20,427 nt of DNA from the IMG/VR virus record IMGVR_UViG_3300021962_000819, positions 1-20,427 of that record; one strand, given 5' to 3'. The stretch comes from a virus. The stretch's first letter is position 1; every line of letters starts with the position of its first letter. Positions 3,916 to 13,635 of the stretch are shown here, piece after piece. The notes beneath the pieces were generated by a model. That model saw only the letters and a program-made list of their open reading frames with translations. It searched no databases and had not been told where the DNA came from. Made by a program: the position numbers and the translations under genes.

Positions 3916-4921
3916 AACCATACTCTTTCTGTGCACATTCATCCAGTGCTTGCATTACTTCGGGGGTGAAATATTTTTCGGGATCAGCAAGTATAACAGA
4001 AGGATAAACGGAAGATTCCCCAACAACGACGCGATTCCCCTTACGGGTGAATACTCCGTATTTCTCACCCAGTTCCAGTAATCCGAAATAGCGATCCAAT
4101 CCGCGTTCATCATAGTACAACCTCGTAGCAACTTTACTGTTCTCTTTAGTGAGTCGGGATTTCTTCGCCTCACACTTGATAATGTTACCCACTACCTCAG
4201 TACCATCCTTCTCCTTAGACTTGCTCAAGAACACAATAGTCGATGCAGCGTACTTCAGTCCACTACCACCGCCCATTTCTTTGGTTGGCACATAGGCACC
4301 CACCACGTCATAGGTGTGGTTGGTAACGATCATAGGAACGTTTGCTTTACCCAGTTTCAGAGTGAGCACACGGAAGATTGCTTTGACCACCTGAGCACGG
4401 GTCATATCACGAGTCTCTTTACCCGCTTCAGAGTCTTCGATTTCTTTTGTGGTAGACAACATACCAAGACTATCGAGAACAAACATCAAAGGTTTACGTT
4501 CGTCAAGTTTCTGCTCCATATACTTCTCAAGGATCTTGAGAGACTGAGTACGAAACTCCTGCACGGTAGTGACAGGAACAATCACCATACGTTTGCTGTC
4601 GATATTACGACTCTCGATCATCTCACGAGAGATTGCAGATTCAGACTCAAAATAAATGACTCCAGCATCAGGATCAGTATCGAGGAAATGACGAACGATA
4701 CTAAGAGCAAAGAAAGTTTTTCCAGTGCTGCTTTCTCCTGCAAGAGCGGTGATCTTGTTTGAAGGCAAACCTCCATAAATCGAACCACTAAGTAGGGCAT
4801 TGAAAATATAGCTGCCACTATCAATGTAAGATGCGATATCTCCAGCAGCAATGCCGTCAGAAACCACACCAGCATATTCGTTGCCAATCTCAGAGACAAC
4901 GTTATTTAGGAAACTGCTCAT
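3905..4921 (-). CDS. uvsX: UvsX RecA-like recombinase
   Basis: A 338-aa RecA/UvsX-family strand-exchange protein. It has Walker A GESSTGKT (62-69), YFESE near 90-94, Walker [12 protein letters not shown] (D150), and a DNA-binding loop region around [12 protein letters not shown]. It forms filaments on ssDNA and drives recombination-dependent replication and repair, normally with UvsY and UvsW, which are not in this window. Its ATG overlaps the gp43 stop as ATGA, consistent with coupled translation of polymerase and recombinase. The C-terminus ([14 protein letters not shown]) is acidic and runs into the next gene. Confidence 0.93.
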
Positions 4922-7395
4922 ACAAATAGATCTTCTAGGGTTGCAATTTTTTCTGCTCTCCAGTTGATCGTGTCAAGGATTACTTGGAGAGGATCGAGGA
5001 AACTCTTCTGGAATTGTAGGTCGTAATCAATGGACTTGTCAAGTCCAAATTCTGTTGGAAGAGTTTGGAAGAACGAGATGATGTTCTCGTTAATTTTATT
5101 TGGTTGACGAAGATACAGGAACTTGACCTTTTCACCTTCTTGTATCAACGGATACTTATGGGTGAGTTTGTTCTTCTTGTTATGGAAATTATATAGGAGT
5201 GCTCCACGAACTTGCACTGGAGTTGCCTTTGAGTAAATCGTTACTGGATTTGAATACTTGCTGAGACCGTTGCAACCTCGGGGGAAAGCGATGTCCTCTG
5301 GACGAAGAGATTCAAATTTGTTCCTGAAGTTTGCGACGAACTTTTGAACGTCGGATTCATCACCATTCATAATTACCTTAAGGGCATCCTTAATGGCAGT
5401 ACGGCAAGCAGCAGGAGTGGATGATTTAACTGCTTCAATACCCATCATTTTAAGTTTGGGTTCAGTGAACCTCACACCTTCAATGTCCCAGGCATTGAGA
5501 ATATACCTTTTCTTAGCAGTCCAGATGCCTTTGTTAGCGATGGTCTCTCGCTTCATAAACATCTTCTGCTCATAGGCATTTACATATCGTGCCAGTTCTT
5601 CGTAAGAACTTTCAATATAAGGTTCAAGTTCCATTGAACAGACCTTATCAAGGAACCCCACAATTTTCTCAGGAGTTTTCTCTCTCCCTTGGTATACACG
5701 GTCAACCAGAGGACCCAGGTTGAGATACAGAGAATCGGTATCAGAAGCAATAACATAATCAACGGAATCAGTTTTGAGGATTTTATTAAGATGCTGGTTC
5801 ATCTTATTCTCAATCCAGCGGATTGAAAGTTGACCAGAAAGAGTAATTGCCTCAGCATTTGCTAGGTTGAAGTACCGAAAATACTGATTACCAATGGCAC
5901 CATAAGCGGAGTTGAGTTGGATCTTTCGTGCCATCTGAATGTTATTGCACCGCGAGATCTCATTCTGAAGTGTTGGATCACCAGTCTCCTCAAACTTCTG
6001 CTTAGCAGCGAGCATCTTCTTTTTGTAGATGGTACGATCACTATAGATACGCTGCATCATTTCGGGCAAGAATCCGTGAATGTCCTTGCGATACTGTGCA
6101 CCATTAGCACATACACAATAGTCGTTTGCAATCTGAACATTGCCAGATAGAAGTTTATCCACCGAAATGCTAGGGAACCTAGAATCAATCAACGTCTCTG
6201 GAGAGATGTTGTACTGCATAATCAGGTGAGGATACAGACTATTGAGGTCAAATGATACGACCCATTCATACAAACCAGGAATGGGTTCTTTCACATATGC
6301 GCCAGCATACTTATCATTTTTATCGCTCTCCTGTTTGGGAGGAACACAGATCTTGCGTTCTTTAAGGTAGTTGTAGATAAGCGTATCCCACATACGGACC
6401 TGTGAATACACATCCTCAAAGTTCACCTTAGCATCATATGCCATAGTGACAGCAAGTTCCAACAGTTTCATCTTATGCTCAAGACGATCCACCAGTTCCA
6501 CGTCGTGCACGTTGTACTCAACAAACTTCTGCCAGTTCTGGGTATAGAAAGCTTTAAAGTTCTCAAACTCGCTGTGATCCAGTTTGTTGGCATTAAGTTC
6601 AACAAATGCAATATGATCCAGTCGATATGATTCTTGATTGCTATAGGTGAACTTTTGGTACAAATCAAGATAGTCAAGGATACTAACGCCCAGGATGTCA
6701 TAGGCAAGATTCTTGCGACCCTTGATATACACCTCACGCATATTTACCTTGTCCCAAGGAGAAAGTGATTTCATCCACTTCTCACCAAGAACACGCTCAA
6801 TGCGACGGCAAATGTATGGGATATCGTACAAGTTACAGTTCCATCCAGTCACAATGTCAGGGGTATTATCAACCCACCACTTGTGAAAGTCTGCGAGCAT
6901 TTCATTCTCAGTCCAGAATACACGATATTCAGTATCGAGTTTTGCTTCACGAGTTCCCCAGGTAATGAACTTACCAGATGAAAGATCCTTGATAGTAATA
7001 AGAAGCATCTCTTCCTGACACGCCTCAGTATCAGGGAATCCATTCTCGCAAGCAACCTCAATGTCGATCGTATAGATCTTCATATCCTTGAGATTAAATC
7101 TCAGGTCACCAGAATACTTCTCGCTGATCCATTGATATACGAATCGTTCATAACCGTGAACTTCAAATCCATCAACGTCCTTATACTTCTCAATGAACTC
7201 ACGAGCACGACGAGCACCATCCTGAACAACAGGTGCCATCGGTTTACCCTCAAGAGTCTTCCAGTCACCCTTAGGAGAAGGAACAAACAGAACTGGTTTA
7301 ATAATCTCCTTATATGAAATGGGCGATCCATTCTCATACCCACGGCAAAGAATGGCATCGCCCAACAGTGTAACATTCGTGTAATAACTACTCAC
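4918..7395 (-). CDS. gp43: DNA polymerase gp43, family B with 3'-5' exonuclease
   Basis: An 825-aa replicative polymerase. Exonuclease motifs: ExoI YTIDIEVA (D111, E113), Exo[10 protein letters not shown] (N186, D191), Exo[13 protein letters not shown] (D298). Polymerase motifs: [10 protein letters not shown] (D383), [10 protein letters not shown] (491-499), [10 protein letters not shown] (D552, D554). The extreme C-terminus, [10 protein letters not shown], resembles a sliding-clamp binding peptide. All catalytic residues are intact. The start is GTG at 7393-7395, overlapping the preceding gene's stop as GTGA; no in-frame ATG fits. It is somewhat shorter than T4 gp43 (898 aa). Confidence 0.95.
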
Positions 7396-7628
7396 AGATT
7401 CTTCTTGTACCTAACGATGGTTTCTTGTGACGGTTCCACTATAGTAAGAATGACATCACTTGTCAAGAAAATATCTCGTTGATCTGTGTAGAGGGGGAAA
7501 GGTATGATCGTATCATCACCTAGTTTTACACAGGACTGAACAAGGTACATCGGTTCCTCATCGAGTTCAACTACCTCCCCCATCAGATGTGTTTGATCCT
7601 TCAGAATCACGATTTTCAATGGATTCAT
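7392..7628 (-). CDS. Small beta-rich protein, Sm-like pattern (copy C)
   Basis: A 78-aa protein beginning MNPLKIVILKDQ. I do not recognise a named family. Its strand pattern matches the two other small proteins at 7567-7959 and 16826-17113: a K-I-x-x-L first strand, an (E/A)(V/D)V second strand, a central IPFPLY segment and a closing strand VILTIVEP followed by a short helix. The degree of identity is low, so common ancestry is inference. The ATG has AGAGGT about 8 nt upstream. It overlaps the preceding gene by 62 nt and gp43 by 4 nt, so its expression is tied to the polymerase. Confidence 0.7.
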   Translation of the reverse strand: MNPLKIVILKDQTHLMGEVVELDEEPMYLVQSCVKLGDDTIIPFPLYTDQRDIFLTSDVILTIVEPSQETIVRYKKNL

Positions 7629-7959
7629 TGTGGTGTACCTCTGTTAGTTTTTCCCATTTTGATTTTACTTCTGGATGCGGTTCGTAAATTGTAACCACTT
7701 GACTGACCTGAACCAGTGTTCTGTTATCTACTGATAGAGGAATCCAAGGAAACAATTCCAAATTTAGATCGTTGATTTTCTGAGGTTCATCAGTGGCACC
7801 AGACTCAAACAGCATTTCTGCTGTAGCAGTAAGTGTAATCTGATATGGATTGATCAGAAAATATCCAATAGGACTATAAGATTCTTGAGTTGGAAATGCT
7901 TCTCTAACGTCAGCAATTACATCTTCACCATTTCCGAGTCTTACGATTTTTACGGTCAT
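7567..7959 (-). CDS. Small beta-rich protein, Sm-like pattern (copy B) with acidic tail
   Basis: A 130-aa protein starting MTVKIVRLGNGEDVIADV. The opening closely matches copy A next to gp44 (MNVKLIRMWSGEDVVADL). Shared later segments are an N-P turn, (F)xPWxP and VSQVVTIYEPHPEV. This suggests a compact beta barrel of Sm-like size, which is inference only. The last 25 residues (ENRDSEGSNTSDGGGS) are acidic and probably disordered. The ATG at 7957-7959 follows GAGAAA; a TTG 12 nt earlier is less likely. It overlaps the 75-aa gene by 35 nt and copy C by 62 nt. Confidence 0.75.
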   Translation of the reverse strand: MTVKIVRLGNGEDVIADVREAFPTQESYSPIGYFLINPYQITLTATAEMLFESGATDEPQKINDLNLELFPWIPLSVDNRTLVQVSQVVTIYEPHPEVKSKWEKLTEVHHNESIENRDSEGSNTSDGGGS

Positions 7960-8152
7960 AGTTTTTCTCAATTAATTTGTAATAAACACCGCGAACGAGA
8001 TCAACGAATGCTTTTCTAGTAGTAATGTTTTTCTCATCTGCTAACAGACGAGACAAGTATAGCATTTCCTCAACGTGTTCCGTAGGAACATCAAGAGTAA
8101 TACTTTCATAATCTTCACACAGTCTAGGTGTGCAATTGACATAATGATTCAT
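7925..8152 (-). CDS. Hypothetical 75-aa protein
   Basis: The protein starts MNHYVNCTPRLCEDYESITL and ends with a strongly basic stretch (KLIEKNYDRKNRKTRKW). The middle (VPTEHVEEMLYLSRLLADEKN) is predicted helical. No family is recognised. The ATG is well supported by GAGGG 8-9 nt upstream. It is the first gene after the late promoter and terminator-like hairpin at 8167-8220, and heads a tightly overlapping run into gp43. The basic tail would fit nucleic-acid contact, but nothing proves it. Confidence 0.7.
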   Translation of the reverse strand: MNHYVNCTPRLCEDYESITLDVPTEHVEEMLYLSRLLADEKNITTRKAFVDLVRGVYYKLIEKNYDRKNRKTRKW

Positions 8153-8166
8153 AGAAAAATCCCTCA

Positions 8167-8195
8167 ACAAAAAGAGACCCCCAGTGGGAGTCTCT
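8167..8195 (-). terminator. Rho-independent terminator / attenuator hairpin
   Basis: On the minus strand a 10-bp stem (AGAGACTCCC paired with GGGGGTCTCT, one G-U pair, 3-nt loop ACT) is followed by TTTTTG. It lies between the stop of the barrel-like gene (8223) and the 75-aa gene (ATG at 8152). It would end transcripts from the right. It also lies only a few bases downstream of the late promoter at 8208-8215, so it could attenuate that promoter's RNA. Confidence 0.8.
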
Positions 8196-8197
8196 TC

Positions 8198-8220
8198 GAT
8201 TGTATTTTATTTATACAATC
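8198..8220. repeat. Perfect 8-bp inverted repeat enclosing a late promoter
   Basis: GATTGTAT and ATACAATC are exact inverted copies separated by 7 nt (TTTATTT). The late -10 motif TATAAATA on the minus strand (8208-8215) falls across the spacer and one arm. The repeat starts 3 nt from the terminator stem at 8173-8195. Confidence 0.8.
8208..8215 (-). promoter_or_regulatory. T4-type late promoter TATAAATA
   Basis: This is an exact match to the T4 late consensus TATAAATA on the minus strand, 55 nt upstream of the 75-aa gene start. Transcription would begin near 8200, so the leader contains the terminator-like hairpin. There is no convincing -35 box. It may give late transcription of the 75-aa gene, the Sm-like pair and gp43, if the hairpin is passed. 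Confidence 0.55.
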
Positions 8221-8222
8221 TA

Positions 8223-8600
8223 TCAGAAGGAATAACGAACTTTGAGTTCGCCACCGAGATCGGTAACCTTGGAAAGATTACCATACTCACCAGTAACCTT
8301 GGCAGCAACACCAACGTTCTTGGCAACCTTAGCCTTTACGCCAACTTCAGCAACAGCAACTTCTTCGTTTTTAGTTTTACCAGTGTTCCACTCGTAACCA
8401 GGGCCAATCTCACCATAAACGGTGACACCCTTAGCAACTTTCTCTTCATAACCAATACGAAGTTCGGTTTGAGCACCTTTGTAAGTGCTGTCACCGTTGG
8501 CAAAAGCAACACCAGAAGTAGTTTTGCTTTCAACGTAAGGACCAGCAAGGGCAGGAGCTGCCATCAGGGGAAGGGCAGCAAGAGCGATTGCGAATTTCAT
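8223..8600 (-). CDS. Small outer-membrane beta-barrel-like secreted protein
   Basis: A 125-aa protein with an N-terminal signal peptide ending near APALA|GPYVE. The mature part (about 105 aa) alternates polar and hydrophobic residues in several beta strands (TELRIGYEE, VTVYGEIGPGYEW, VGVKAKV) and ends in a phenylalanine (GELKVRYSF). A terminal Phe is the usual recognition signal for the BAM outer-membrane assembly machinery. It is clearly related to the neighbouring gene at 8691-9065 (AGPYV start, YGEIGP/YAQLGP, V(K/R)Y(S/T)F end). No Shine-Dalgarno is visible before the ATG, and a terminator separates it from its sister gene. The function is unknown; envelope insertion late in infection is inference. 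Confidence 0.75.
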   Translation of the reverse strand: MKFAIALAALPLMAAPALAGPYVESKTTSGVAFANGDSTYKGAQTELRIGYEEKVAKGVTVYGEIGPGYEWNTGKTKNEEVAVAEVGVKAKVAKNVGVAAKVTGEYGNLSKVTDLGGELKVRYSF

Positions 8601-8628
8601 AAAAGTTTTATGCGATTTACAGTGTCTT

Positions 8629-8660
8629 AAAAAAAGACCTCTACAATCTAGCAGAGGTCT
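8629..8660 (-). terminator. Rho-independent terminator after the upstream barrel-like gene
   Basis: On the minus strand AGACCTCT and AGAGGTCT form an 8-bp stem with a 10-nt loop, followed at once by TTTTTTT. It lies 30 nt after the stop of the 8691-9065 gene and 28 nt before the ATG of the next barrel-like gene. That next gene must be read through the hairpin or from an unseen promoter. Confidence 0.8.
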
Positions 8661-8690
8661 CGGATTTTGTCGTTAAGGTTTAGTTAATGA

Positions 8691-9065
8691 TCAGAAGGTG
8701 TACTTTACGCCAGCCTTCACGTTGGTCAGGAGGTTATCAACCTCAAAACCGTTGGTGGTCGAACCCCACACTTCACCGTAGATACCCAGACTATCGGTAG
8801 CGGCAATGTTGATGCCGACCTTACCAGACAGTTCAACTTCGCTATCGCCACCATCGGGAAGCACGAAGTTGGGACCGAGTTGAGCATAACCAGTCACGTT
8901 ACCACCCAGAGCACCTTCGACGCCCAGGTGAGTTTCAATGGTGCTACCACCATAGTTGCTACCAGCGAAACCTGAATTGGATTCAGCGTTAACGTAGGGT
9001 CCTGCCATTGCAGCACCAGCGAAAAGGGGAGCAGCAGCGAGTGCTGCGAATGCGGATTTAATCAT
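8691..9065 (-). CDS. Small outer-membrane beta-barrel-like secreted protein (paralogue)
   Basis: A 124-aa protein. The signal peptide is MIKSAFAALAAAPLFAGAAMA, with cleavage before GPYVN. The mature chain has repeated short beta strands (IETHLGVEG, VTGYAQLGPNF, VELSGKVGINI, LGIYGEVWGS) and a C-terminal VKAGVKYTF, a typical barrel end. It is a paralogue of the gene at 8223-8600. The start is supported by GAGGT 8 nt upstream. It is driven by the superimposed early/late promoter at 9183-9216 through a leader of about 110 nt that can form a hairpin. A host-surface role such as receptor masking or permeability change is possible but unproven. Confidence 0.78.
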   Translation of the reverse strand: MIKSAFAALAAAPLFAGAAMAGPYVNAESNSGFAGSNYGGSTIETHLGVEGALGGNVTGYAQLGPNFVLPDGGDSEVELSGKVGINIAATDSLGIYGEVWGSTTNGFEVDNLLTNVKAGVKYTF

Positions 9066-9114
9066 TTTAGATACCTCGTTATTTTCTCGCAGAATAATAT
9101 ACCTGCGGATGTAA

Positions 9115-9133
9115 AGAGACTCGACTTGTCTCT
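9115..9133 (-). other. Hairpin in the 5' leader of the barrel-like gene
   Basis: AGAGAC and GTCTCT form a 6-bp stem with loop AAGTCGA in the predicted leader RNA (minus strand). Only three U residues follow, so it is not a standard terminator. It may affect mRNA stability or translation. Confidence 0.45.
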
Positions 9134-9182
9134 GTTTAGTTCACGTCACTAGGCGAGTAGTTGAGGCTTCGTTTCGATCACT

Positions 9183-9190
9183 TATTTATA
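9183..9190 (-). promoter_or_regulatory. T4-type late promoter TATAAATA
   Basis: Exact TATAAATA on the minus strand, upstream of the barrel-like gene at 8691-9065. It overlaps the -10 box of a sigma70 promoter (9188-9193) by three bases, so the same site can serve both host and phage sigma factors. Confidence 0.7.
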
Positions 9191-9216
9191 ATACCAAGAA
9201 TCACCTGTCTTGTCAA
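9188..9216 (-). promoter_or_regulatory. Sigma70 (early) promoter TTGACA-17-TATTAT
   Basis: On the minus strand TTGACA (9211-9216, perfect) is followed after 17 nt by TATTAT (9188-9193, 5 of 6). The -35 box contains the TGA stop codon of hsp20. It should drive the barrel-like gene early in infection. Confidence 0.75.
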
Positions 9217-9668
9217 GAGATTTCGTAGACCTTTTTCTTTTGATGGTCTGGAATGACTTTCTCAAGTGAGATGGTCAGCATACCATTTGAAAACTGAACG
9301 TCTTTAACAATCACATCATCAGCAATATTGAACCCTCTGGTGAAGGATCTATTTGCTACTCCACGATGTAGATACTGAGCATCTTGTTCTGGTTGTGACT
9401 TAATAGATTCAATAATAAGGATATTGGATTCAGTAGTTACACTGATGTCATCCTTATCCCATCCAGCAAGTGCCATCTCAATTCTCCATTCGGTATTTGA
9501 ATCTTTAATCAAATTATATGGAGGATAGGAACCGCCAGGATGATTGGTGCCATATGAGTGCAGACGATTGAATACATCGTCCAGTCCTACACTATATCGA
9601 GTGACAGCATCCCTGATGCTATCAAGATCTTTCGTAGTGTAACGAACAATTTGATCGACGTTGGTCAT
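9213..9668 (-). CDS. hsp20: Small heat-shock protein Hsp20 (alpha-crystallin family)
   Basis: A 151-aa protein. An N-terminal helical region (about 1-45) is followed by YPPYNLIKD and an alpha-crystallin domain (about 50-140) with the WRIEMALAGWDKDDI strand pattern and the conserved G-x-L motif (NGMLTISLEK, 128-137). ATP-independent holdase chaperones of this family are a core feature of T4-like cyanophages, where a role in capsid assembly or protection of host proteins has been suggested. The ATG at 9666-9668 is decided by a strong AAGGAG 8 nt upstream; the longer frame to 9785 is non-coding leader. It diverges from the plus-strand secreted genes. Confidence 0.92.
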   Translation of the reverse strand: MTNVDQIVRYTTKDLDSIRDAVTRYSVGLDDVFNRLHSYGTNHPGGSYPPYNLIKDSNTEWRIEMALAGWDKDDISVTTESNILIIESIKSQPEQDAQYLHRGVANRSFTRGFNIADDVIVKDVQFSNGMLTISLEKVIPDHQKKKVYEIS

Positions 9669-9702
9669 TGTAGTTCTCCTTAAAAAGCGAGATTCGTTGT
9701 GT

Positions 9703-9719
9703 GGTCCCCGAAGGCAACC
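9703..9719 (-). other. UUCG-tetraloop hairpin in the hsp20 leader
   Basis: On the minus strand GGTTGCC-TTCG-GGGACC folds into a short stem with one bulged G, closed by C(UUCG)G, a very stable tetraloop. It sits about 35 nt upstream of the hsp20 ATG. It could block a nuclease or act as a temperature-sensitive element, but neither is shown. Confidence 0.5.
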
Positions 9720-9725
9720 GATAAT

Positions 9726-9753
9726 ATTTAACAAAATTACTTCCAAGTTGCAA
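9726..9753 (-). promoter_or_regulatory. Candidate sigma70 promoter for hsp20
   Basis: On the minus strand TTGCAA (9748-9753) is followed after 16 nt by TTAAAT (9726-9731). Both boxes match the consensus at 4 of 6 positions. The location before the hsp20 leader is sensible, but the match is weak. Confidence 0.3.
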
Positions 9754-9782
9754 CTACGGTTATCCACACCAGTAAACATTTT

Positions 9783-9790
9783 CATAAATA
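9783..9790 (+). promoter_or_regulatory. T4-type late promoter CATAAATA
   Basis: CATAAATA on the plus strand matches NATAAATA and ends 24 nt before the ATG of the first plus-strand secreted gene. This is the same spacing as at the left-edge gene. It is the only promoter seen for the three plus-strand genes. Confidence 0.65.
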
Positions 9791-9814
9791 GGATCGTAGT
9801 GTACTTACGAAGGA

Positions 9815-10294
9815 ATGAAAAAACTTATTCCTCTCGTTATGTTACTGATGACGGCACCTGCATATGCCGATGTTACACATAAACTGTCAACTTCAGTTCA
9901 ATTAACTGTTGATGCTGCTGCTTCACAAGCAACCCGTATTGGTTCAACTTATTCGGTAAGTGGCAACAACCTGACCATTACAACGGAGGGTGGACTTGGT
10001 TCACTTACTTCTGGTACTGCAGTTGGTTACACTCCAACCGACTATACAGCACCAAGCACAGCATTCACATTTACAGAATCTTTCATTCAGGGAGATAACG
10101 TCCCAACAGGAACAACCGTTACTAGCGGAGTCGTTGGTTCGCTTCCCGCATATGGAAACGTTACGACCACTGCTGGTGGGGTGGCTGGTTCTCTCGCTGG
10201 CACTATCACTACAGCTGGGGCGGTATCGCTAACTGCTGGTGGGGCAGGTACAAGTGCAACAGGGCAATTCGTGACAGAAATCACTGTCAAGTAA
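9815..10294 (+). CDS. Secreted Gly/Thr-rich protein of unknown function
   Basis: A 159-aa protein with a clear signal peptide (MKKLIPLVMLLMTAPAYA|DVTHK). The mature part is very rich in Gly, Thr, Ser and Ala with many short beta-strand patterns (SVSGNNLTITTEGGLG, GTITTAGAVSLTAGG) and almost no charge, as in extracellular fibre or surface-adhesin proteins. It has no recognised domain and no cysteine. The start is fixed by the signal peptide, although AAGGA abuts the ATG more closely than usual. It is the first of three plus-strand secreted genes downstream of the late promoter at 9783. Confidence 0.75.
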   Translation: MKKLIPLVMLLMTAPAYADVTHKLSTSVQLTVDAAASQATRIGSTYSVSGNNLTITTEGGLGSLTSGTAVGYTPTDYTAPSTAFTFTESFIQGDNVPTGTTVTSGVVGSLPAYGNVTTTAGGVAGSLAGTITTAGAVSLTAGGAGTSATGQFVTEITVK

Positions 10295-10305
10295 GTTGTA
10301 TAGAT

Positions 10306-10722
10306 ATGAAGAGAATACTTCTTGTGGTACTACTATCGGGATCGCCCGCTATGGCGGTCCCAGTTGTTCCTAACTTTACTCAAGGAACATTAACTTCCAC
10401 AACGACAACTAAATCAGTTGTCACTGAAACGATCAACTCCCGTGATTATAGAACAGGATGGGAATACACAATTACAGGTACGAACATTACGAATGGTGGG
10501 GCGAAAGTAAATCCATCCACAACAGTAACGTCAACCACGACAACAGGAACTCAATCCGCTCTGGATCTAAATTCACTTGGAAACTACACAATCCAAGACG
10601 CAACAAAATCCTGGCAGTTTACACAGACATATTCTGGTCCAGGTTTAGTAAACGAAACTATAATTCAAAGATCAACAGAAATAGAATCGGTCACAGAATC
10701 GGTGTCAGTATTCTCGCAGTAG
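10306..10722 (+). CDS. Secreted Thr-rich protein of unknown function
   Basis: A 138-aa protein with signal peptide MKRILLVVLLSGSPAMA|VPVVP. The mature part is rich in Thr/Ser with beta-strand character (GTLTSTTTTKSVVTETI, TGWEYTITGTNI) and ends in an acidic, alternating stretch (STEIESVTESVSVFSQ). The ending repeats an ESV unit, encoded by a 12-nt tandem duplication at 10683-10706. It starts 11 nt after the previous stop without a strong Shine-Dalgarno, so it is likely reached by coupling. Its 3' end overlaps the signal-peptide region of the next gene in another frame. The function is unknown. Confidence 0.72.
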   Translation: MKRILLVVLLSGSPAMAVPVVPNFTQGTLTSTTTTKSVVTETINSRDYRTGWEYTITGTNITNGGAKVNPSTTVTSTTTTGTQSALDLNSLGNYTIQDATKSWQFTQTYSGPGLVNETIIQRSTEIESVTESVSVFSQ

Positions 10723-11471
10723 GTCTTTATGGACTGCCCGCATATGCTCAGGATGTTGGGGGTGTATCTGCTACTGCTGCTCCTGTTGCTAATAGCAGTG
10801 GCAGCGTTACCAACCAGGCGATCCAGGTCTTACAGGGTCCGTATATTACAAATACCTACGGGGGTGGTGTATCCTGCCAAGGTCCAACGTTAAATATCAC
10901 ACCATTCATCACAGATAGCAAATCTAGGCAAGTACCCTACGAACAATATTATAACGATCCAGTCTATGATATGAGAGATCTGGATGATGATGGTGCACCA
11001 GATAACCCTGGCAATGTTCTATTCTACAAGCCAATCAGAACTGGTCAGAAAGATAGTTTATCTTTCAACTACGGTCTATCAGCAACCATATCAATACCAC
11101 TGGACTTCAGTCTACAGAGTAAATGTAGGGCAGCTGCTGATGCTCAGACAAAAATGCAAAACCAATTAATTGCTAACAAGAGATTGGATTTTGAGATTGC
11201 TCGTTTAAAGAACTGTGGTGAACTGATGAAACAAGGTATTATGTTTCACCCAAAGTCACCATACTATGCAATCTGTGCAGATGTGGTATTAGTCACTCCT
11301 AAGATACCCGTAGCGAATCACACGCACACTATTTCAGTCCCCGCTTCAACTGCTTCAAAGACTTCGTTAAATCCGACACAGCGCGGTTCCGATCCCTCTG
11401 AGACAGGATACGTTCCCTTACACTCTCACGGGGCGGTTCCTTCCCCCGTGCCTTCTGCAACTTCGCAATAA
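10671..11471 (+). CDS. Secreted protein with non-canonical start (probable AUC)
   Basis: The frame encodes a good signal peptide, basic NRNRIGHRIG then VSILAVGLYGLPAYA|QDVGG, followed by a mature protein of about 240 aa with SCQGPTLNI, an acidic turn (DLDDDGAPDNPG), a C-rich helical part (SKCRAAADAQTK … LKNCGELM) and a His-bearing tail (HTHTISV, PLHSHGAV). No ATG, GTG or TTG exists in frame between the upstream shadow frame and the signal peptide. The first candidate is ATC at 10671, with others at 10686, 10698 and ATT at 10710. The start coordinate is therefore a guess. The family is unknown. Its last 143 nt overlap the opposite-strand gene ending at 11329. Confidence 0.65.
   Translation: MNRNRIGHRIGVSILAVGLYGLPAYAQDVGGVSATAAPVANSSGSVTNQAIQVLQGPYITNTYGGGVSCQGPTLNITPFITDSKSRQVPYEQYYNDPVYDMRDLDDDGAPDNPGNVLFYKPIRTGQKDSLSFNYGLSATISIPLDFSLQSKCRAAADAQTKMQNQLIANKRLDFEIARLKNCGELMKQGIMFHPKSPYYAICADVVLVTPKIPVANHTHTISVPASTASKTSLNPTQRGSDPSETGYVPLHSHGAVPSPVPSATSQ
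10683..10706 (+). repeat. 12-nt imperfect tandem repeat
   Basis: AGAATCGGTCAC is followed directly by AGAATCGGTGTC. The repeat encodes the ESVTESV end of the upstream protein and the RIGHRIG n-region of the downstream signal peptide, so one duplication shaped both proteins. Confidence 0.7.
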
Positions 11472-12093
11472 TCTTTTTGATTGTCGGTTTAATCAACTTC
11501 AACAAAAAGTCCGCGAAAGGTTTTGCCAAGAGTGCTGAAGTAGTTGCAACTAGAGCAATTGATGCTGTAGTGGTAACTGCTTCAATGGGTGGCAGCAGAG
11601 ATTGCTCGGGAGTTATAGGTTGCTCAGGCAATACTTTAACGGGAGTTATAGGTTGCTGAGAATTCTCCTTGGTAGTATTCCCATTCTCGGATGAATTTAC
11701 GACAGCAGTGTTGATCTGTGCTGCACGTCTTGCGGCATCTAAAGCATCTGCCTTCGTCTGTTCGTCAGGTTCCGATTGCAATTTCGGGGGAACAACCTTA
11801 GGTCTGCTGAAGGTCATATCATTGGGGTTGTATTCAATCGGATTGTATGATGGCATCGTTCCATCACACAAAACCATATTACCCCTAGGATCTTGTGTAG
11901 GTAGATCCTTGTTATTGTTCTCTCTGGTCTCCACACAACCAGGAACTTGCATAATAGGAGTTCCTATAGTCTCAGTAACTATTGGAGTTCTCGGTATCAC
12001 AGGAGAAATCTCTGGCACTGCTACCGTAATTGGAGCAACACCAGAGATTCCAACATCAAGATTTGGTATACTTACATCCCGTATATCAGGCAT
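11329..12093 (-). CDS. Proline-rich protein with a membrane segment, unknown function
   Basis: A 254-aa protein starting MPDIRDVSIPNLDVG. Residues 1-55 are Pro/Val/Ile-rich (SGVAPITVAVPEISPVIPRT). The middle is polar, with a duplicated QPITP unit, and a hydrophobic segment follows (TTTASIALVATTSALLAKP, about 175-195). The C-terminus is strongly basic and helical (KKIIAKLQKARGKE…RERILSQRDRNRAVSD). One membrane span with a basic cytoplasmic tail is likely. The ATG overlaps the stop of the 35-aa gene as TGATG, with GAGG upstream. It is the last gene of the late operon starting at 12894, and its 3' end overlaps the plus-strand secreted gene by 143 nt. Confidence 0.75.
   Translation of the reverse strand: MPDIRDVSIPNLDVGISGVAPITVAVPEISPVIPRTPIVTETIGTPIMQVPGCVETRENNNKDLPTQDPRGNMVLCDGTMPSYNPIEYNPNDMTFSRPKVVPPKLQSEPDEQTKADALDAARRAAQINTAVVNSSENGNTTKENSQQPITPVKVLPEQPITPEQSLLPPIEAVTTTASIALVATTSALLAKPFADFLLKLIKPTIKKIIAKLQKARGKEPPRESVRERILSQRDRNRAVSDLTKSLKQLKRGLK
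11427..11450. other. GC-rich hairpin in the convergent overlap
   Basis: CACGGGG and CCCCGTG form a perfect 7-bp stem around a 10-nt loop, inside the region where two convergent genes overlap. No U-tract follows on either strand, so it is not a typical terminator, but its placement would suit stalling of converging transcription. Confidence 0.4.
11607..11657. repeat. 18-nt direct repeat, 33-nt period
   Basis: CGGGAGTTATAGGTTGCT occurs at 11607-11624 and again at 11640-11657. It encodes the repeated QPITP unit of the minus-strand proline-rich protein and looks like a simple in-frame duplication. Confidence 0.8.
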
Positions 12094-12200
12094 CAATCCT
12101 CAGTAAAAAAACCAACGATTCCAGAAAACAAGTGGAAGAAGAAAACATATAAAAAGAACTTCCCTTCGGTATCATTCTTCTTCCTTCTGCTAGTAGTCAT
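12093..12200 (-). CDS. 35-aa single-span membrane protein
   Basis: A small gene reading MTTSRRKKNDTEGKFF then LYVFFFHLFSGIVGFFTED. The N-terminus is strongly basic (SRRKK) and the second half is one hydrophobic aromatic span, so an N-in inner-membrane topology is expected. The TGA stop overlaps the ATG of the next gene as TGATG, a classic coupling junction. It fills the only sizeable gap in the late operon. There is no strong Shine-Dalgarno. The function is unknown; the size and shape also fit small phage lysis or membrane-stress peptides, but this is inference. Confidence 0.6.
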   Translation of the reverse strand: MTTSRRKKNDTEGKFFLYVFFFHLFSGIVGFFTED

Positions 12201-12227
12201 AGTATATGTTTATAGCTACAATATATA

Positions 12228-12527
12228 TCAGAAGGGAATTGCAGGACCAGACAGGATTGTTTTGTTTTGTAACGGTAATGCACCGCCAACTTTGGGAATG
12301 GATGTCTTAACCAGATTACCGATCATAGGTTTTACTGCATTGATTGCACCCTCGGTTGCTGCTTTAGTAACAACATCCTTAAGTTTCTTCTCTGCTAGTT
12401 CTGCTGCCTTGTCGGTAGCAGATTGAATGATCGCTTCCCTCTTAGCATAGACAGTAACACCAACCCCAACCAATGCCAGGTTCATACCAAACGATGCTAG
12501 GGCGAGCAAGTTAATTAGTTTCTGCAT
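12228..12527 (-). CDS. Membrane-anchored helical protein, unknown function
   Basis: A 99-aa protein starting MQKLINLLALASFGMN. Residues about 3-27 form a hydrophobic anchor (…LALVGVGVTVYAK). A long alanine/lysine/glutamate amphipathic helix follows (SATDKAAELAEKKLKDVVTK), then a Pro/Gly-rich end (NKTILSGPAIPF). The ATG at 12525-12527 lies 4 nt after the previous stop, and the longer frame upstream is a shadow of the neighbouring gene. It has no Shine-Dalgarno, so coupling is likely. It is the second gene of the late membrane operon. Confidence 0.75.
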   Translation of the reverse strand: MQKLINLLALASFGMNLALVGVGVTVYAKREAIIQSATDKAAELAEKKLKDVVTKAATEGAINAVKPMIGNLVKTSIPKVGGALPLQNKTILSGPAIPF

Positions 12528-12531
12528 AAGA

Positions 12532-12894
12532 TTATGTGCGAGGTTTAACGTAACCTTCCTGAGGTTCTTCACCACCATCTTCCTTCGGTTCATCTTCCCA
12601 AATAGGACGAACAGAAGGTTCTTCTTCATCTTTAGGTTTGGCATAAACTGGTGTTGCATCACCAGTTGGTGTATTGGTGCCATTACCAGTATTTTTTGCT
12701 GCAGCAATACCGAATCCAGCGAGAGATCCAGAGAATACAGAGGCAATAAAAGTGGGATCAAAATCGAGAATCTTCTGCCCAGATGGCAGGCGGAAATAAG
12801 ATGCAGTCAATAATGATGCGCTCCAAACCAGGATTGAAACTTTTATCAAATCAGATAACCATTCTCTTTTCTTTTCGTGGTCTTCGTTTTCCAT
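12532..12894 (-). CDS. Membrane protein with acidic tail, unknown function
   Basis: A 120-aa protein. It has a charged N-terminus (MENEDHEKKREWLSDLIK), a first hydrophobic segment (VSILVWSASLLTASYF), a second around ASVFSGSLAGFGIAAA, and then a disordered acidic Pro/Glu-rich tail (KPKDEEEPSVRPIWEDEPKE). Two membrane spans with both ends in the cytoplasm is the simplest topology. The late promoter AATAAATA at 12921-12928 lies 26 nt upstream of the ATG, making this the lead gene of a four-gene late operon ending at 11329. No family is recognised. Confidence 0.75.
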   Translation of the reverse strand: MENEDHEKKREWLSDLIKVSILVWSASLLTASYFRLPSGQKILDFDPTFIASVFSGSLAGFGIAAAKNTGNGTNTPTGDATPVYAKPKDEEEPSVRPIWEDEPKEDGGEEPQEGYVKPRT

Positions 12895-12919
12895 TTATTT
12901 AACATAAACGTTTGACACA

Positions 12920-13039
12920 CTATTTATTTTTTGGAGCATTGCAATCATTGCAGTAATAAGAAAACCCCCATCTAAAGGTTTTCACTACTTGATAGTGATC
13001 TTTATCCAGGGGTTTTTCTATGTCACATTTACTACAAAT
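12920..13039 (-). CDS. Small zinc-ribbon protein, probable AUU start
   Basis: A 39-aa frame with CSKC and CNDC pairs separated by 24 residues (CSKCDIEKPLDKDHYQ … FSYYCNDCNAPKNK). This is the C-x2-C … C-x2-C pattern of small phage zinc fingers related to HNH/endonuclease VII ribbons, but without catalytic His residues. The start is uncertain. ATT at 13037-13039 overlaps the upstream stop by 8 nt (ATTTGTAG), exactly as ATG does at two other junctions in this window. The only in-frame ATG is at 13112-13114, deep in the upstream gene. It probably binds nucleic acid or a protein partner. Confidence 0.55.
   Translation of the reverse strand: MCSKCDIEKPLDKDHYQVVKTFRWGFSYYCNDCNAPKNK
12921..12928 (-). 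promoter_or_regulatory. T4-type late promoter AATAAATA
   Basis: AATAAATA on the minus strand, 26 nt upstream of the ATG at 12894, overlaps the last codon region of the zinc-ribbon gene. It would start a late transcript for the four membrane/proline-rich genes down to 11329. Confidence 0.6.
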
Positions 13040-13208
13040 CCTTGTGCTGCTTTTTACGGACTCGTTTGAGTTCTTTGAGTTCTTCTTTAATGCGTTTGTA
13101 AGCAGTCTCAGCATCAATCTTGTCTCCAAGTTCCATTGCAATAATTATATCTACCCTAGTACCAAAATGTGCTAGGGCAGTTTCAAATTTGTCTAAATCC
13201 TCATACAT
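13032..13208 (-). CDS. Conserved-type phage hypothetical, 58 aa
   Basis: The protein reads MYEDLDKFETALAHFG then a predicted helix pair, with a lysine-rich end (EELKELKRVRKKQHKDL). It is almost entirely alpha-helical and may form a coiled coil. The ATG at 13206-13208 overlaps the regA stop by 8 nt (ATGTATGA), so translation is likely coupled to RegA; a TTG further upstream is not needed. Similar short helical proteins follow regA in other T4-like cyanophages as far as I recall. The function is unknown. Confidence 0.72.
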   Translation of the reverse strand: MYEDLDKFETALAHFGTRVDIIIAMELGDKIDAETAYKRIKEELKELKRVRKKQHKDL

Positions 13209-13635
13209 CAGTAGCAGCCTTTTTCTTGCCAATGTTGTATTTAGATTCCAGAATCCATTCGCCTTTGTCTTTGAAAGCGATAACTTTAATCTGATTCAAC
13301 GGAGCGATGTCTTCGATCTGCTCGTCTGCAACGATACCAACCAGTCCCCAATCGGAAAGAAGTTTGGTAATACGATTTCTACGCTGAACATCGTTGATTG
13401 TAAGGTTTGCGTGTTTGCCATCAAGGGCAAACAGTTCCTTAAAATGTACGATGTAGTATCTACCTTTCTTATGTAAGATATGGCAGGACTGAAACAGTTT
13501 CTTTTCTTTACGAGAAGCAACACCAATACGAGTAAGAGTTTCTCTAATCTTCAGAAAGTCATCTGGTTGTTTAAGAGTAACTTCCACCATCATATCAGGT
13601 GACCAGCTCAATTCGATGGATTTTTCATCCGTCAT
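13201..13635 (-). CDS. regA: RegA translational repressor
   Basis: A 144-aa protein whose residues about 16-140 match T4 RegA closely in pattern: VEVTLKQPDDFLKIRETLTR, SCHILHKKGRYYIVHFKELF, NDVQRRNRITKLLSDWGL. RegA binds the initiator region of early phage mRNAs and represses their translation, including replication genes. This version has about 15 extra N-terminal residues (MTDEKSIELSWSPDM) relative to T4. The ATG overlaps the gp62 stop as ATGA, preserving the T4 gene order 45-44-62-regA-43, although other genes are inserted here. Confidence 0.93.
   Translation of the reverse strand: MTDEKSIELSWSPDMMVEVTLKQPDDFLKIRETLTRIGVASRKEKKLFQSCHILHKKGRYYIVHFKELFALDGKHANLTINDVQRRNRITKLLSDWGLVGIVADEQIEDIAPLNQIKVIAFKDKGEWILESKYNIGKKKAATDV

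Follow-up and report, generated by a model that had tools for sequence, protein, structure and literature searches.

The IMG/VR virus record IMGVR_UViG_3300021962_000819 is a contig of 20,427 bases, and the window analysed here is the entire contig. Between the T4-like replication genes gp43 and regA, the window contains a two-operon cassette in which genes D, E, and F on the plus strand face genes G, s35, H, and I on the minus strand. The same interval holds A and B, which encode barrel proteins, and C, which encodes the small heat-shock protein Hsp20, all on the minus strand. We give even chances to the reading, drawn from sequence, that the D–I core is a portable exit (lysis) cassette of cyanophages, in which I would be a holin-like protein and D, E, and F exported proteins that act on the envelope. 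The lysis reading is favoured because in one clade of relatives (L045, L052, L074, L081, L083, L098, and the group L130–L144) a C39-peptidase-type gene of the endolysin family phrog_10051 is located directly downstream of the two-span gene I, on the same strand.

Proteins of the cassette

Gene D (9815–10294, plus strand; phrog_564) encodes an exported beta-rich protein and is a paralogue of E. Gene E (10306–10722, plus strand; PF19847/DUF6322, phrog_650) encodes a second exported protein, and its 3′ part is overlapped in the −1 frame by F (10458–11471, plus strand; phrog_848). Hydropathy profiles contain signal-peptide segments in D and E, as well as in the neighbouring A and B. The signal-like segment of F (approximately 10698–10748) terminates in AYA, and the protein has four invariant cysteines.

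On the opposite strand, where membrane spans were assigned by hydropathy, I (12532–12894; PF20048/DUF6450 with 87.8 bits against a cut-off of 25; phrog_721) encodes a holin-like protein with two membrane spans, formed by residues 13–31 and 48–66. H (12228–12527; phrog_568, labelled ‘plasmid stability’ in database records) has an N-terminal span followed by a helical tail. The 35-residue, single-span protein s35 (12093–12200; phrog_8670) is encoded by a gene whose stop codon overlaps the start of G in the sequence TGATG. G (11329–12093; phrog_570) is proline-rich, with a C-terminal membrane span and a basic tail, and the 3′ ends of G and F overlap. The PHROG families to which D, F, G, and s35 were assigned have no known function, and a Pfam search identified no transporter or enzyme domain in D–I. 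According to labels in the records, the cassette families G, F, E, D, I, and H correspond to T4-GC clusters 234–237, 218, and 414. In relatives, an additional membrane-anchored family, phrog_605, is often positioned between G and H (L090 at 11423–12058 and 52 other loci); it is not present in the window.

Late promoters

The late motif of phage S-PM2 has been published as NATAAATA (PMC2984593). Exact copies of ATAAATA in the interval are located at 9784–9790 on the plus strand, and at 8208–8214, 9183–9189, and 12921–12927 on the minus strand. The number of copies is not significant, since the window contains six against 3.3 expected, and 10 of 100 shuffles reach six. The informative property is the position of the motif, which was compared between relatives and shuffled stretches, with at most one mismatch allowed and a distance of 25–42 nucleotides before the gene. 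Such a site precedes D in 41 of 48 relatives (10.4 expected from the shuffles) and I in 37 of 56 (7.0 expected). E and G have it in 0 of 53 and 4 of 50 relatives, respectively, and in 19 of 57 (7.0 expected) H has its own late-promoter-like site. Because the motif is fixed in position before D and I and not before E or G, D-E-F and I-H-s35-G have the appearance of a converging pair of late operons, putatively served by the exact, positionally conserved sites at 9784–9790 and 12921–12927.

A preliminary description of the window had assigned a late promoter to each gene group of the interval. Late-promoter-like sites agree with the assignment for the two operons, but not for A and hsp20: the window has no late site upstream of A, where a weak Pho-box-like site is found instead, and no exact ATAAATA directly upstream of hsp20. 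The minus-strand site at 8208 is downstream of A and is aimed at the gene at 7925–8170. Two had also been said to face the opposite strand, which is incorrect, as 9784 is the only one of the four promoters on the plus strand and would serve D, E, and F together.

Genomic setting and linkage

The minus strand of the window encodes a T4-like cyanophage replication module comprising gp45, gp44, gp62, regA, gp43, uvsX, and gp41, of which gp45, gp44, uvsX, and gp41 were named from sequence and order rather than from a family search. In T4, regA and gene 43 are adjacent. The separation of about 5 kb noticed previously is borne out: gp43 (4918–7395) and regA (13201–13635) are separated by 5.8 kb, the ends of which are occupied by other small cyanophage genes (7392–8170 and 12920–13232). 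The inventory given in the preliminary description was accurate in several respects. Both barrel-like proteins score as members of PF24653, Hsp20 matches PF00011, the three proteins claimed to have signal peptides are D, E, and F with Sec-type signal sequences, and membrane or proline-rich proteins are present according to hydropathy and to PHROG and Pfam profiles.

Linkage was determined in viral contigs that contain F, which were fetched and profiled, and each count includes only contigs that are long enough. D-E-F are collinear in all 46 scorable relatives, a convergent G follows F in 70 of 70, and H is located beyond G in 43 of 45. In one phage (L080, approximately 1270–1880), an insertion of several hundred bases lies between the two genes E and F, precisely where E ends. 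Hsp20 adjoins D in 9 of 41 relatives, and a barrel gene is present at 19 of 81 loci, so that hsp20 and the two barrel proteins are only loosely linked to D–I. The linkage counts rule out the whole island as one unit. The island is a composite, and A, B, and hsp20 are neighbours of the two-operon core, not members of it. The joint envelope system proposed earlier is supported for D–I, given their linkage, signal sequences and membrane spans, promoter-like sites, and endolysin-family adjacency in one clade, and is not supported for A, B, and hsp20, which occur scattered and unlinked in related phages, as D–I do not.

The cassette is located between regA and gp43 in the window, S-RIM50, and S-TIM4, in the last of which pstS is found beside hsp20. 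The replisome setting emphasised in the preliminary description does not extend to the other phages: in S-RSM4 the cassette has photosynthesis genes and tail structural genes in its vicinity, in P-HM1 hli and psbA, and in both Syn1 and P-SSM2 talC, with the I and H genes of P-SSM2 a few kilobases further off. The location in the replisome cluster is incidental.

Overlap of genes E and F

Database records are inconsistent regarding the start of F, which makes it a recurrent annotation problem. The hydrophobic signal-like segment of F straddles the stop codon of E, and there is usually no ATG, GTG, or TTG nearby. The F frame, −1 relative to E, stays free of stops for a median of 64 E codons, compared with 13.8 in synonymous recodings, and this openness is significant (p < 0.05) in 92% of 66 sequences. 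The +1 frame over E has no excess openness relative to the synonymous recodings. Most myovirus relatives have an in-frame ATG at a distance of exactly 54.3 codons upstream of the stop codon of E; it corresponds to position 10458 in the window, where the overlap spans 10458–10722 on the plus strand. The reading-frame statistics make dual coding over the last 54–64 or so codons of E well supported, and the ATG at 10458 is a candidate start of F. A non-AUG start was rejected because no column of near-cognate start codons is conserved, and a frameshift because no slippery heptamer was seen by eye in the overlap of the window; the upstream in-frame ATG fits better than either. The overlap by itself proves nothing about function.

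Occurrence in phages and hosts

F matches 441 phage records and DUF6450, the family of I, matches 436, nearly all of which are cyanophages by name. The siphovirus MED4-184 has the order I-D-E-F facing G-H. In the T7-like phages P-SSP7, S-TIP37, and P-GSP1, the genes G-I-E-F, all on one strand, follow the tail-fibre genes and precede the small terminase, and most of 80 further I loci have the G-I-E-F order. In T7, the slot between tail fibre and small terminase is occupied by the holin gene 17.5. The cassette families are thus common to myo-, sipho-, and podoviruses of marine cyanobacteria. The cassette is common, not universal; F is missing, for example, from T4-like phages of estuarine Synechococcus (S-CREM1, S-SZBM1, and S-CREM2) and from the podovirus Syn5.

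Three freshwater Synechococcaceae contigs (L105, L106, and L107) also carry D-E-F. All of them encode ndhI, two encode citrate synthase, and two contain a weak G-like gene. The trio on these contigs was possibly captured from phages or donated to them. A common host origin was rejected on grounds of rarity, since among 386 sampled cyanobacterial genomes one had DUF6322, and F was detected in 6 of 250 genomes of the order, two of these matches being weak. Several cyanophage-like contigs (L097, L098, and L100–L104) are filed under genome assemblies assigned to Bacteroidota, Chloroflexota, and further groups, among them that of an isolate called Nonlabens xiamenensis, and are likely contamination or misbinning. 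L121 is antisense to another long open reading frame and was judged spurious, and L122 may be a remote relative.

Putative role in lysis

With its small size and two predicted spans, I falls in the range of holins, which have two or three. In addition to the clade with the C39-peptidase-type gene, the freshwater phage DSL-LC02 encodes a phage lysozyme and a C39 protein, which have a common N-terminal domain, within a few kilobases of I, and in P-SSP7 a weak match to an endolysin family is located between the terminase genes. The window contains no endolysin gene beside I.

From the observed genes, their order and linkage, the promoter positions, signal peptides, conserved cysteines, and endolysin-family adjacency, we infer the following mechanism. 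In the late phase of infection, gp55-type promoters would fire the two converging operons. The first operon would provide the holin-like, two-span I, the single-span proteins H and s35, and the proline-rich G with its C-terminal span, whereas D, E, and F from the second would be exported via Sec, and F would become disulfide-bonded in the periplasm. I would permeabilise the inner membrane, and an endolysin, encoded next to I in one clade and elsewhere in most phages, would cut the wall. H, G, D, E, and F would then act on the outer layers of the cell envelope of the cyanobacterium, either disrupting or spanning them. It is conceivable, at somewhat less than even chances, that a single transferable exit machine, adapted to this envelope, operates in marine cyanophages of all three tail types, with a DUF6450 holin, single-span partners, and an exported D-E-F set, encoded in part by overlapping genes, replacing classical spanins.

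Several observations weigh against a function in lysis. In most cassette loci, no endolysin gene is found close by. A lipobox is absent from D, E, and F, whose signals end in AxA-type motifs with no cysteine at +1, so none of them is a classical outer-membrane spanin. Both F and DUF6450 were not found in S-CREM1 and Syn5, S-CREM2 has no F and only a sub-threshold DUF6450 match, and no F was found in S-SZBM1, yet all these phages lyse cells. The D-E-F trio of the three freshwater contigs occurs without I or H. Furthermore, the predicted structures of F and E (E model m6fc8926eb991) are of low confidence, with a pLDDT of about 68; they had no significant match in the PDB by Foldseek and gave Z scores below 5 in a second look, and a sequence-profile search returned nothing useful. 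The missing structural match is not evidence for a new fold.

The main rival explanation is surface remodelling or superinfection exclusion, in which D, E, and F, exported late, would coat or alter the outer envelope and G, H, and I would serve as membrane helpers. It accommodates the signal peptides, the invariant cysteines, and the nearby barrel proteins, to which a large exported protein is added in L002, L005, and L051, and D-E-F on freshwater cyanobacterial contigs suggests a role other than killing. We nevertheless regard it as unlikely: it does not account for the holin-like I or for the endolysin-family gene next to it, and exclusion factors are usually early rather than late products. 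Parts of the virion, or helpers of tail-fibre assembly, would be expected to have late promoters too, and the cassette adjoins tail-fibre genes in P-SSP7 and has tail structural genes close by in S-RSM4. Particle proteins assembled in the cytoplasm, however, do not usually have Sec signal peptides or membrane spans, and the families are shared by phages with three types of tail, which makes a virion or tail-associated module improbable. Two virion proteome tables, those of S-SZBM1 and S-CREM2, are from phages without F and have no bearing on it.

A nutrient or stress module, in which the cassette, hsp20, and the barrels would together alter uptake during infection, is suggested by the link of the neighbouring DUF680 barrels to phosphate stress (PMC6224464, PMC9146016) and by the position of pstS in S-TIM4. 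It appears very improbable, given the loose linkage of D–I to the barrels and hsp20, the lack of transporter and enzyme domains in D–I, and the rarity of DUF6322 in the sampled cyanobacterial genomes.

Barrel proteins, leader RNA, and Hsp20

A (8223–8600, minus strand; phrog_417) encodes a small outer-membrane-type beta-barrel with a signal peptide, which scores 81.9 bits against PF24653/DUF680 (cut-off 27), and B (8691–9065, minus strand) a second barrel protein with a signal peptide, scoring 145.6 bits at the same cut-off. The third neighbour, hsp20 (9213–9668, minus strand), belongs to phrog_432. The barrel family has been published as DUF680/PhCOG173, and the members from P-SSM2 are so named. 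It has been tied to phosphate stress (PMC6224464, PMC9146016). A DUF680-type gene of S-TIM4 lost its function when the phage was passaged on Synechococcus WH8102 (PMC6224464), and a relative of A with 61% identity was detected in purified particles of S-SZBM1 (PMC9146016). The Pho-box-like tandem repeat 88 nucleotides before A (8670–8688, minus strand) agrees at 14 of 16 positions and is weak on its own, with two matches in the window against 2.8 expected. Similar, statistically weak sites precede several A-type relatives.

The 5′ leader of B (9066–9191, minus strand) is a structured RNA with the late-promoter-like site 9183–9189 at its 5′ end. It folds into two hairpins that show compensatory changes, and a further pairing may cover the ribosome-binding site. 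In the covariation analysis, 95.5% of cells are paired, and there are 40 double-sided changes compared with 14.4 in shuffles. About 1 Mb of loci, training set included, yielded 20 copies with the corresponding model.

Comparison with known systems

A and B are members of PF24653 Phage_OMP/DUF680 (PhCOG173) by Pfam score, and B is distinguished by its structured leader RNA, for which the window gave no Rfam match. In the cyanomyovirus comparison of Sullivan et al. 2010, the T4-GC clusters of the cassette are known only as hypothetical or ‘plasmid stability’, and a description of them as one unit was not found in the text searched. No paper in the literature searched names DUF6450, DUF6322, or PF24653, and a 2026 study of lysis timing in Syn9 leaves the operation of holin and endolysin open (PMC13371907). 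Lysis by the very abundant cyanophages is a large flux of the ocean carbon cycle, and the genes that time and carry out lysis in T4-like marine cyanophages appear unassigned. If the proposed function is correct, D–I would be, within the literature searched, the first cassette of these phages to which lysis is assigned. The cassette supplies a small number of testable genes, found in more than 400 phage records, and the analysis also flags a structured leader RNA.

The T7 lysis region consists of the holin gene 17.5, the small terminase gene 18, and the spanin genes 18.5/18.7. The cassette resembles it in occupying the same slot in T7-like cyanophages, in including a small two-span protein, and in having overlapping genes for exported proteins. 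It differs in that no sequence match was found, that D, E, and F are not lipoproteins, and that it also occurs in myo- and siphoviruses, where the operons converge. The nesting of F out of frame over E (−1) is like that of the second gene of Rz/Rz1 spanins. D, E, and F have no lipobox lipoprotein partner and are therefore not classed as Rz/Rz1. The Planktothrix cyanophage PaV-LD has a holin and an endopeptidase encoded by two tandem lysis genes (PMC9096620), an arrangement to which I and the C39 gene can be likened by gene order alone.

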